DNA from: Shewanella oneidensis MR-1
Lineage (GTDB): Bacteria; Pseudomonadota; Gammaproteobacteria; Enterobacterales; Shewanellaceae
Assembly (NCBI RefSeq): GCF_000146165.2
Contig: NC_004347.2
Location: forward strand, 2,790,001 to 2,854,000
Length of the DNA stretch: 64,000 nucleotides
Reading direction: 5' to 3'
Shown: one piece after another, positions 8,142-13,528 of the stretch
Layout of the letters: each line of letters opens with the position of its first letter
Position numbering within the stretch: the first letter of the stretch is position 1
Translations under genes and position numbers: made by a program
The notes under the pieces: generated by a model
Told to the model about the DNA's origin: nothing
The model's database searches: none
What the model saw: only the letters and a program-made list of their open reading frames with translations

Positions 8142-8388
8142 ATTTATGAGGATATAGATGATGACAAAAAAAGAACGAATAGCAATTCAGCGATCTATGG
8201 CTGAAGAAGCACTAGGTAAGCTAAAGGCGATTAGGCAACTTTGTGGTGCTGAAGACTCTTCAGATAGTAGTGATATGCAAGAGGTTGAAATTTGGACTAA
8301 TCGCATAAAAGAACTAGAAGATTGGTTATGGGGCGAAAGCCCGATAGCATAAAATGTATTTTAATGTATACAGCCTGAATTGTTTTAA
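8123..8388 (+). repeat. 19-bp direct repeats bracketing a small cargo gene
   Basis: ACAGCCTGAATTGTTTTAA occurs at 8123-8141 (end of the Mor-like gene, including its stop) and again without mismatch at 8370-8388. Between the copies is AT-rich DNA encoding only the 64-aa gene at 8161. This is the footprint expected of an insertion or duplication that copied the end of the activator gene. Confidence 0.9.
8161..8352 (+). CDS. small AT-rich cargo protein, unknown function
   Basis: A 63-64-aa highly charged helical protein ([17 protein letters not shown] start); the ATG at 8158 is equally possible, with GAGGATA upstream. It ends [14 protein letters not shown]. No family recognised. It lies inside the segment bounded by the 19-bp repeats, so it was probably acquired after the core phage genome. 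Confidence 0.55.
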
Positions 8389-11190: not shown

Positions 11191-11772
11191 ATGCAAGTGT
11201 CAAGTACTCGTAAGTCAAAGGTCAATTTACTGCCGCAGGAAATCCGCGATCAACTGCATGCGTTGCTGCGCAGTGGCACCATGCATCAAAAGGATATCCT
11301 CGAAGCCGTTAATCAAATGATTGACGAAGCTGGCCTTGGTGAAGATGCCAAACTTAGCCGCACCGGCTTTAATCGCTTTGCGAAAAAGTTTGAGCAAGTG
11401 GGCGAACGTATTCGCCAAAGCCGTGAAGTGGCCGAGGTCTGGACCGCCAAGTTAGGCCAAGCGCCGACATCTGATGTGGGCAAGCTGCTGCAAGAGTTCG
11501 TGCGCACCATGGCCTTTGAAACATCGATGAAGATGATGGACGCCGCAGACCAAGAGGATGCCGAACCCATATCACCCAAAGCCCTTGGGCAACTGGCGCT
11601 GGTCGTGCAACGGATTGAAGCCGCAGCCATGTCGAGTATTAAGGTTGAAAAAGAAATCCGCAGTGCCTTTGCAGCCGAGGCCGCAACTAAGGTTGAGCAG
11701 ATTGTAAAACAGGCGGGGATCTCAGCTGAAACCGCTATTGATATTAAAAACCAAATCTTGGGGATTGCGTAA
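11191..11772 (+). CDS. DUF3486 family protein (Mu gp27-like, probable small terminase)
   Basis: A 193-aa protein of the DUF3486/gp27 family. It has an N-terminal HTH-like region (LLPQEIRDQLHALLRSGT, then TGFNRFAKKFE) and a long helical C-terminal region, consistent with a small terminase subunit that recognises phage ends for headful packaging. GGGGGC lies before the ATG. The ATG of the Acb2-like gene overlaps its stop. Confidence 0.88.
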   Translation: MQVSSTRKSKVNLLPQEIRDQLHALLRSGTMHQKDILEAVNQMIDEAGLGEDAKLSRTGFNRFAKKFEQVGERIRQSREVAEVWTAKLGQAPTSDVGKLLQEFVRTMAFETSMKMMDAADQEDAEPISPKALGQLALVVQRIEAAAMSSIKVEKEIRSAFAAEAATKVEQIVKQAGISAETAIDIKNQILGIA

Positions 11773-11966
11773 TGTTTAAACCAACAACAATTGAATTTTT
11801 TAAGTACCAACATTTACCAGCTCATTTGCAAGCGGTAAGTAAACCTTTTGCTGAGCTTGCTGAGACCTTAGCTAATGAGTTGCCAGAAAATGAAGAAAGC
11901 CAAATGGCTATGAGAAAGTTGCTTGAAGCTAAAGATTGTGCTGTTCGTGCATTGTTGGTGAGGTAG
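11772..11966 (+). CDS. Acb2/Tad1-like protein, possible anti-CBASS cyclic-nucleotide sponge
   Basis: A 64-aa helical protein inserted between gp27 and the large terminase. It reads F-x-Y-x(2)-LP near residues 10-16, then F-x-ELA-x(2)-LANELPENEE, then a closing helix with KLLEAKDCAVRALL. This is the hairpin pattern I associate with the Acb2/Tad1 domain, where two helices per subunit form a hexamer that traps cyclic di- and trinucleotides and so blocks CBASS. Acb2 genes are known from Mu-like Pseudomonas phages near structural genes. The call rests on pattern memory; small phage helical proteins can look alike. Its start overlaps the gp27 stop, so it is expressed with late genes. Confidence 0.65.
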   Translation: MFKPTTIEFFKYQHLPAHLQAVSKPFAELAETLANELPENEESQMAMRKLLEAKDCAVRALLVR

Positions 11967-11968
11967 TT

Positions 11969-13528
11969 ATGAACTACGAGTTCCGCGAACAAGATGTACT
12001 GCTGCCCTATCAAAAGCGTTGGATTGCTGATGAATCGCCGCTCAAGATCGCTGAAAAAAGCCGACGTACAGGTATCACTTGGGCAGAGGCTGCGGACGCT
12101 GCATTAACAGCATCTAAGTCTAAAGCTGCTGGCGGGACTCACCATTTTTATGTTGGCTCTAATAAAGAAATGGCGCGGGAGTTTATTGATGCTGTGGCCA
12201 TGTGGGCCAAGGCATTTAACTATGCTGCCCAAGATGTGCAAGAAGAAGTGTTTCTTGATGAAGATGGCAACAAAGAGATCCTAACTTTTGTTGTGTACTT
12301 TGCCTCGGGCTTTAAGGTGCAAGCGCTATCCAGTAACCCGTCAAACTTACGGGGTATGCAGGGTAATGTGACCATCGACGAAGCCGCATTCCACGAGCGC
12401 TTAGCCGAAGTACTTAAAGCCGCATTAGCGTTAACCATGTGGGGCGCAAAGGTGCGCTTAATCTCAACCCATAACGGCGTTGAGAACCTATTTAATCAGC
12501 TGGTTAATGATTCCCGTGCAGGTAAAAAGCGTTACTCGATCCATACCATCACCCTTGATGATGCCTGCCGTGACGGCTTATATAAGCGCATTTGCCAAGT
12601 CAAGGGTAAGACATGGACACAAGCAGAAGAAGACCAATGGAAAGCAGGCTTACTTAAAGATACCGCTACCGAAGAAGACGCATTAGAGGAATATTACTGC
12701 GTACCCAAAAGCGGCGGTGGGGCCTATATCCCACGCGGCCTACGTGAACGAGCAGCTGTGCTTAATGTGCCAGTGCTACGTTTTAATGGCTCTACCACAT
12801 TTAATCAGGCGAGCGAATTTGCGCGAATTGGTGAGATGCAAGAATGGCTAGAGCGTGAAGTTGCCCCAGTACTTTCAGAGCTACCCACTAACTTGCGCCA
12901 TGCGCTTGGGGAAGACTTTGCCCGCAGTGGTGACTTAACGGTTTATGCGCCCATAACAGTGCATGACAATACCACTCGTGCGGTACCGTTTTTAGTTGAA
13001 CTTAAAAACGTACCGTTTAAGCAGCAAGAGCAAGCGCTGTATTACATTTGCGATCGCTTGCCTAGGCGTGATGGTATCTACCTCGATGCGCGGGGTAACG
13101 GCCAGTACTTAGCCGAGCAAGCCCATTATAAATATGGCGCTGAGGTAGTGGAGGTCATGCTGTCGGTGGCGTTCTACCGCGAGAACATGCCGCGCTTTAA
13201 AGCCGCCTTTGAAGATAATGAGTTGCTGCTACCCAAGCATGAGGACGTGATTACCGACCTTGGGCAAATTCAACTTTATCGCGGTGTGCCGAGTATCGAT
13301 GATAGCCGCACCACTGGCAGCGATGGCAATAAGCGCCACGGTGATAGCGCGGTGGCGATCTTCTTAGCCTTTTTGGCATCTAAAGCCGATATCACCCGCT
13401 ACGAACTGCACACGATTAAAGCTGATGTTGACGAAAACCATTGCCGCTTTTTTGGTACCGCCGCCGAGAACAACCGTTTTGATGATATGGCCACGCACGA
13501 TATGCGCGGCAAAGGGATAAGACTATGA
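11969..13528 (+). CDS. phage terminase large subunit (Mu gp28-like)
   Basis: A 519-aa ATPase/nuclease that packages DNA into the prohead. Walker A-like SRRTGITW at 31-38 and Walker B VTIDEAAF with DEAA at 136-139 are present. A C-terminal RNase H-like nuclease follows, with GEDFARSGD and YLDARGNG as likely metal-binding acidic clusters. The ATG at 11969 follows GAGGTAG; an upstream in-frame start lies inside the preceding gene. The 3' end overlaps the portal gene by 4 bases. Confidence 0.94.
   Translation: MNYEFREQDVLLPYQKRWIADESPLKIAEKSRRTGITWAEAADAALTASKSKAAGGTHHFYVGSNKEMAREFIDAVAMWAKAFNYAAQDVQEEVFLDEDGNKEILTFVVYFASGFKVQALSSNPSNLRGMQGNVTIDEAAFHERLAEVLKAALALTMWGAKVRLISTHNGVENLFNQLVNDSRAGKKRYSIHTITLDDACRDGLYKRICQVKGKTWTQAEEDQWKAGLLKDTATEEDALEEYYCVPKSGGGAYIPRGLRERAAVLNVPVLRFNGSTTFNQASEFARIGEMQEWLEREVAPVLSELPTNLRHALGEDFARSGDLTVYAPITVHDNTTRAVPFLVELKNVPFKQQEQALYYICDRLPRRDGIYLDARGNGQYLAEQAHYKYGAEVVEVMLSVAFYRENMPRFKAAFEDNELLLPKHEDVITDLGQIQLYRGVPSIDDSRTTGSDGNKRHGDSAVAIFLAFLASKADITRYELHTIKADVDENHCRFFGTAAENNRFDDMATHDMRGKGIRL

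Follow-up and report, generated by a model that had tools for sequence, protein, structure and literature searches.

A 64-amino-acid prophage protein of Shewanella oneidensis MR-1 as a probable nucleotide-signal sponge from a sister subfamily of Acb2

Does a 64-amino-acid (64-aa) protein encoded between the gp27 and terminase genes of a Mu-like prophage of Shewanella oneidensis MR-1 sequester the nucleotide signals of bacterial immunity? The gene lies in a stretch of 64,000 nucleotides (NC_004347.2, positions 2,790,001 to 2,854,000 of the forward strand; hereafter the window). A preliminary description, made from the sequence alone, had proposed it as a candidate relative of Acb2 and Tad1, acting against the cyclic-oligonucleotide-based anti-phage signaling system (CBASS). 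Our analysis upholds the Acb2/Tad1-hairpin relationship on two grounds, a shuffle-controlled profile-profile comparison and the predicted fold; the protein is not a canonical Acb2. We consider, with a probability of about 0.6, that the 64-aa family is a sister subfamily of the Acb2 branch in the Acb2/Tad1-hairpin superfamily and a probable nucleotide-signal sponge rather than Acb2 proper. The anti-CBASS role and the ligand of the candidate sponge are unproven, and we put them forward less firmly than the sponge function itself.

The known family models did not recognize the protein directly. The Pfam model PF24729 (Acb2_Tad1_hairpin) gave no match to it at E ≤ 10, which leaves it outside the Pfam family, and T4 Acb2, used as a control, matched the model at 7e-20. 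Two of the 38 members of alignment set A1 gave weak matches (best 0.1), and the homologue from Vibrio phage martha 12B12 reached 0.057 with 14.1 bits against a cut-off of 27; seven other relatives gave none. Searches of Pfam, NCBIfam, PADLOC and PDB sequences with the single 64-aa protein returned no Acb2 assignment, and PDB sequence searches with the protein and its family profiles found no Acb2 relative. Low-scoring matches to Occludin_ELL (also seen in 13 of the 38 A1 members), a MARVEL-domain protein and Dps were set aside as chance, being below cut-offs, partial, eukaryotic or contextually unrelated. The source names 'ferritin-like' and 'anti-TRAP' also appeared among the homologues. The wide family profile A3 matched residues 426-471 of PDB 8jaj chain a (Gp22; NYLHFQHVPSLMNAISRFF..., E 0.0023), possibly by chance; this match takes in helix 2 and the FFxYxHLP segment at the N terminus.

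The link to Acb2 runs through an actinophage family that carries PF24729. Profile-profile comparison of the 64-aa family with this intermediate by hhalign gave probabilities of 90.2, 93.1 and 75.8 in three comparisons, and none of 100 shuffles attained the score of the 90.2 comparison. The intermediate set held 51 sequences after removal of the fragments P0244, P0280, P0284, P0297 and P0298 and one redundant entry. Against classic Acb2, hhalign gave no signal in two alignment sets. The background for these scores was at first drawn from 10 neighbour families, the best of which scored 14.5 against the 64-aa family, above the 11.7 of classic Acb2; this background was sparse, with several members that resembled antisense open reading frames (ORFs), and shuffled and reversed profiles then took its place. 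The model phrog_1454 bridges the two ends: residues 17-60 of the 64-aa protein align with its positions 29-72 (E 5.5e-4) and T4 Acb2 residues 65-86 with its positions 57-78 (E 7.1e-4). Xandras gp101 matches both phrog_1454 (8e-30) and PF24729 (5e-16), and all 56 of its relatives that were found carry PF24729. The available text of PMC11953737 terms Xandras gp101 a CBASS antagonist or 'cyclic oligonucleotide sequestering protein', by annotation and not by assay, and its database record reads hypothetical protein. By sequence, the intermediate family matches the solved 'Acb2 homolog 43' (PDB 9ptq) and Tad1 chains, the latter at 8e-5. These results indicate that the 64-aa protein is homologous to PF24729 proteins as judged by profile-profile comparison. 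A literature search of limited scope found no paper describing the 64-aa family as Acb2.

The predicted fold agrees with this assignment. The AlphaFold2 (AF2) model has a predicted local distance difference test (pLDDT) score of 93.3 and is all-helical, with helices at residues 5-10, 17-36 and 41-63 (DSSP). An Acb2 protomer is defined, in the available parts of PMC12043709 and PMC10419184, by a short N-terminal helix and two long antiparallel helices, and the model of the 64-aa protein has this layout. The hairpin turn lies at the same residues in the intermediate family, because the helices of the Xandras-type model (13-36 and 41-64) also end at 36 and begin at 41. The actinophage proteins (Xandras gp101; 9ptq) are of similar length with the same hairpin, turning at 37-40, and align without gaps to residues 21-60 of the 64-aa protein (LP-x-x-x-E...KL-x-EA). 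They differ in helix 3, which reads REKAVAxTKLEEAMFWANAAIAR in the actinophage proteins and NPExTxALRKLLEAKDCAVRA in the 64-aa family; in the short N-terminal helix with FFxYxHLP, which is a feature of the 64-aa family; and in being matched by the PF24729 model. Tad1 (Thoeris anti-defence 1) shares the two C-terminal helices, whereas its N-terminal antiparallel beta-sheet has no counterpart in the 64-aa model. Acb4 and Tad2 are sponges of the same kind of function as is proposed here, with different folds that contain beta-strands, according to the available parts of PMC11722364 and PMC12043709.

Structure searches gave mixed results. When BFVD was searched with the 64-aa model, ranks 1-6, at 29-49% identity, were seemingly its own relatives; nine of the 44 rows listed after them were named Acb2/Tad1 hairpin, with a best E of 0.077 and a probability of 0.99. 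The 64-aa and Xandras-type models shared 12 rows among the 50 listed for each. One result weighs against an Acb2 relationship: with the 64-aa model, Foldseek and VIA against the PDB returned no Acb2 chain among the 50 rows listed, and this counts because the same route with the intermediate's model lists T4 and Pseudomonas Acb2, T4 Acb2 with a modest and nearly tied Z.

We then compared the residues of the binding pocket. The available text of Jenson et al. (PMC10097602) gives Y8, H11, K23, R79 and F82 as ligand contacts of T4 Acb2 (Vs.4), places L29, A66, A73 and A77 at the hexamer interface and reports that S74N disturbs the binding of cyclic GMP-AMP (cGAMP); in the available part of PMC12657230, T68M weakens binding by Acb2. 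The phrog_1454 and hhalign alignments set the helix-3 register, in which a residue of the 64-aa protein equals the T4 residue minus 20. Eleven offsets were tested, and -20 gave a mean of 0.90, any other at most 0.39. At this offset the positions of A66, A73 and A77 are small (A/G/S) in 94%, 100% and 77% of 115 sequences, a comparison of residues and not of a multimer model, and the position of R79, a phosphate contact in T4 Acb2, is Arg (Arg59) in 99% (114/115). The T4 F82 position is Leu62, with Leu/Ile/Val in 111 of 115 sequences and Phe in one; T68 corresponds to Arg48 and S74 to Lys54. For the N-terminal part, where the register is taken from the helix-cap spacing, Y8 corresponds to Tyr12 (Y/F/W in 111/115) and K23 to Ala27, a position mostly G/C/A/S, so that Lys23 is not kept. 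The His11 position is Leu15, and the neighbouring His14 is present in 112/115. Across the 115 sequences, the family thus lacks the complete base-stacking pair Tyr8 and Phe82, and it keeps only Arg79 of the polar and salt-bridge set His11, Lys23 and Arg79.

Near-invariant charged residues occur instead. F10, H14, L15, P16, S23, A30, E42, R48, K49, L50, L51, E52, A53, K54, D55, V58 and R59 each occur in at least 111 of the 115 non-redundant sequences, with Arg48 in 114, Glu52 in 115, Asp55 in 114, Arg59 in 114, Lys49 in 111 and Lys54 in 113. These sequences came mostly from loci found by helix-2 or helix-3 word patterns (best 80 each), and a helix-3 motif filter had removed 3 of 149 matches from the family set, which were restored by hand together with two others. 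Such selection may inflate the conservation of helix 3, and the residues were therefore recounted in 128 sequences without the motif filter, in 38 carrying the helix-2 pattern and in 93 top homologues. R48, E52, D55 and R59 were present in all but at most one of the 128, in 38/38 and in 93/93. In the 38 sequences free of helix-3 selection, K54 was likewise present in 38/38 and the three interface positions were small in 37, 38 and 33. R48, E52, D55 and R59 follow an i, i+4, i+7, i+11 spacing and should lie on one helix face with the counterparts of T68 and R79. The interface alanines and Arg79 are kept while Lys23 and Phe82 are replaced, which we read as the same platform with a pocket that appears to have been rebuilt around the near-invariant Arg48, Glu52, Lys54 and Asp55.

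From these comparisons we propose that the 64-aa protein is most likely a sponge, small, oligomeric and without catalytic activity, which would bind an immune signal of nucleotide type made by the infected cell and thereby keep it from its effector. It would assemble into an Acb2-like hexamer, hold its ligand where Acb2 binds cyclic nucleotides and be produced late, together with the proteins for packaging and the head. Because the pocket appears rebuilt, the ligand may not be 3'3'-cGAMP.

The strongest alternative, unlikely in our view, is an Acb2 homologue that is no longer a sponge, whose Arg48, Glu52, Lys54, Asp55 and Arg59 engage a housekeeping molecule or a conserved protein of the host and redirect, for example, transcription, translation or metabolism. 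The near-absolute conservation of R48, K49, E52, K54, D55 and R59 across contigs that record titles assign to many host phyla would suit such an unchanging partner, as would a canonical pocket that is kept only in part. Yet among the conserved positions are the counterparts of T4 T68, S74 and R79, residues implicated in ligand binding, and the same-fold proteins with described tests are sponges, namely T4 Vs.4 (PMC10097602) and PaMx33-type Acb2 (PMC12043709, PMC10419184), as the available parts of these sources describe them. We retain the sponge as the preferred reading.

Less probable again is a canonical anti-CBASS Acb2 that binds 3'3'-cGAMP and cyclic trinucleotides as the T4 and PaMx33 proteins do, which we regard as improbable. 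The 64-aa protein shares with Acb2 (T4 Vs.4, 7uq2; Pseudomonas p26, 8h2j; JBD67 gp34) the short N-terminal helix and the antiparallel two-helix hairpin, the counterparts of A66, A73, A77 and R79, probably that of Y8, and the capacity to lie in the head region, where JBD67 and RcapMu also carry Acb2-profile genes. However, it has 64 residues against 88-108, is not matched by PF24729 and has no direct sequence or profile match to classic Acb2; the Lys23 and Phe82 counterparts are lost, and Thr68 and Ser74 are replaced by near-invariant Arg and Lys, beside the likewise near-invariant Glu52 and Asp55. Of the checks proposed in the preliminary description, the two-helix hairpin was found in the AF2 model, and the aromatic and basic pocket was recovered in part, with Tyr12 (in its inferred register) and Arg59 kept and Lys23 and Phe82 lost. 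The third, a CBASS locus in the host, came back empty: SMODS (PF18144) had no match in the host genome (5.13 Mb, 2 contigs), in a search that did not extend to other CD-NTase families, type III CRISPR or Panoptes. The ThsB TIR domain and PF24729 likewise had no matches there, and the genome holds one copy of the 64-aa gene. Among 97 genomes of the genus, 12 carry SMODS and one, the host's own, carries the 64-aa gene; among 274 genomes of the class, PF24729 turned up in five.

That the likeness arose by chance, through sequence convergence in a small helical hairpin of other descent, is very improbable. Chance would account for the failure of the direct hidden Markov model searches, and a helical hairpin finds many structural matches of modest Z. 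It does not fit the shuffle control, nor the agreement of phrog_1454 and hhalign on one register, the only one that fits the T4 interface and Arg79. In addition, when the family member L113 was compared with 177,635 PDB sequences, its sole match at E ≤ 10 was Acb2 homolog 43, with an E no better than 1.1.

The surroundings of the gene vary among phages. It follows gp27 in martha 12B12, as in this prophage, and it stands directly after a recognizable gp27 in 7 of 160 fetched loci (L001, L002, L083, L085, L097, L102 and L068); 15 of the 160 have any recognizable Mu-type neighbour. In the Mu-like Vibrio phage 1.028.O the terminase begins at the gp27 TAATG and the slot is empty, in Shewanella phage MuM16-2 an unrelated hydrophobic 48-aa ORF begins at the gp27 stop, and in L002 the slot holds the 64-aa gene and an additional small hydrophobic ORF, with the junction TCATG. 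A TAATG-type junction is used by the slot filler in most of seven related phages compared. The gp27/gp28 junction of Mu-like phages looks like a cassette slot (L272:2040-2110, L271:2043-2260, L002:5975-6400) in which the insert begins at the gp27 stop in each of these cases. Such a variable slot is as expected of an accessory gene. Elsewhere, genes of the family neighbour those for minor tail proteins and endolysin in Gustav, for the baseplate in JA29, and for topoisomerase and RNA ligase in Henu6; in phiAsp2 the gene is upstream of the major tail gene amid unassigned genes, and in Pupper, StAugustine and AD45-P1 it sits amid small genes. A role as a packaging accessory of the terminase, suggested by the gp27/gp28 position here and in martha 12B12, is therefore rejected as scarcely credible by the 7/160 loci, the tail, lysis, baseplate, topoisomerase/RNA-ligase and small-gene neighbours, and the empty slot of the Vibrio phage.

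For the sponge that we favour, late expression with the packaging and head genes is plausible, because transposable phages can carry Acb2-profile genes among their head genes. In JBD67, gp34 (Acb2-profile E 2.4e-25) sits between the major head protein and the head-tail adaptor, and the RcapMu44 gene (E 4.9e-20) lies two genes past the major capsid; the idea of an Acb2-type gene in a head operon, raised in the preliminary description, thus has precedent. For the RcapMu44 gene (L180:4977-5267; phrog_717 E 8e-11) of the Mu-like phage RcapMu, the authors' own annotation reads 'similar to cyclic-nucleotide binding domain'.

The gene runs from an ATG to a TAG codon, and the features of the locus are listed in the table below. 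The motifs pointed out in the preliminary description are present: F-x-Y-x2-LP as F10-K-Y12-Q-H-L15-P16, LANELPENEE at residues 33-42 and the closing helix KLLEAKDCAVRA at residues 49-60. Its placement of a 64-aa gene between gp27 and terminase also stands, with a one-base overlap in which the final A of the gp27 stop TAA (11770-11772) serves also as the A of the gene's ATG. An overlapping terminase start was not borne out, as the terminase ATG abuts the gene 2 nt past its stop and would overlap only if an earlier TTG at 11936 serves. The portal gene of the same region is a Mu portal (PF06074, E 1.7e-95), and Pfam gave no match at 0.01 for the terminase large subunit. The best-ranked phage record by DNA for 11191-13528 comes from Shewanella (76.6% over 90%). 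The same prophage region encodes a 64-aa DUF6835 protein at 8158-8352 on the + strand (PF20759, E 2e-48).

Features of the 64-aa gene and its neighbours (positions in the window)
Feature	Position	Strand	Evidence
64-aa Acb2/Tad1-hairpin-like protein (phrog_1761 / phrog_5120 family)	11772..11966	+	ORF, PHROG matches, homologues, AF2 pLDDT 93.3
TAATG stop/start overlap, gp27 to 64-aa gene	11770..11774	+	Sequence; seven related sequences compared
Tyr12, proposed counterpart of T4 Acb2 Tyr8 (base stacking)	11805..11807	+	N-terminal register inferred from helix-cap spacing
Helix 2 of the predicted hairpin, residues 17-36	11820..11879	+	AF2 model, DSSP
Helix 3 of the predicted hairpin, residues 41-63	11892..11960	+	AF2 model, DSSP
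Ala46, Ala53, Ala57, putative counterparts of T4 Acb2 hexamer-interface A66, A73, A77	11907..11942	+	Offset -20; T4 mutants in the available text of PMC10097602
Near-invariant charged Arg48, Glu52, Asp55, Arg59, plus Lys49, Lys54	11913..11948	+	115-sequence alignment
Upstream neighbour, Mu gp27 (PHROGs: terminase small subunit)	11191..11772	+	PF11985 E 6.3e-56; phrog_426 E 4.6e-61
Downstream neighbour, gp28-like terminase large subunit	11969..13528	+	phrog_2 E 7.3e-44

The 64-aa gene is real and conserved, and its family is large. The protein matches phrog_1761 (E 1.6e-30), phrog_5120 (E 1.3e-18) and phrog_1454. One query against 5.8 billion predicted proteins, counted as clusters, gave 1,728 homologues at E ≤ 1e-3 among 1,731 candidates, comparable to the 2,359 clusters that this database yields for classic Acb2; published counts come from other databases and cannot be compared directly. 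By tblastn, 327 of 50,697 phage records matched the protein at E ≤ 1 and 301 at E ≤ 0.01. Among the phages that carry the family are those of Vibrio, Erwinia, Acinetobacter, Gordonia, Mycobacterium and Ruegeria, and its contigs are labelled, in the record titles of the best 80 of 198 confirmed loci, as Proteobacteria, Actinobacteria, Planctomycetes, Bacteroidota, Cyanobacteria, Chloroflexi and other groups. The 64-aa gene and its relative in L001 differ by 12 synonymous codon changes and one non-synonymous change. This codon evidence comes from one pair only, because two further pairs of near relatives, which differ little, show no such excess (martha and L083, 1 synonymous and 2 non-synonymous; L097 and L102, 3 and 5).

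Some relatives depart from the common length. One on a contig of a Bipolaricaulota metagenome-assembled genome (L126:2040-2297) has an insertion in the loop joining helices 2 and 3. In the Brevibacterium phages AGM2 and AGM9 the match is 171 and 222 bases long, respectively, a 51-base difference inside the relative of the 64-aa gene, and the AGM9 match falls under a feature named 'repeated sequence in phage genome'. A0A6G6XYP8 of Ochrobactrum phage vB_OspP_OH (122 aa, named anti-TRAP domain-containing) is a longer relative and possibly a natural domain fusion.

If the 64-aa family is a sponge, counter-defence against nucleotide signals would be commoner than has been counted, and the small conserved pocket would be a direct handle for finding the signal. 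A bolder version, which we hold only tentatively and regard as doubtful, is that a large and widely spread branch of the Acb2/Tad1-hairpin superfamily has been overlooked, because Pfam and PDB structure searches miss the 64-aa family, and that its strictly conserved charged pocket binds an immune signal unlike that of any described Acb2, such as an ADP-ribose derivative or an undescribed nucleotide. Were this true, it would indicate an equally widespread and still undescribed signalling defence in bacteria.
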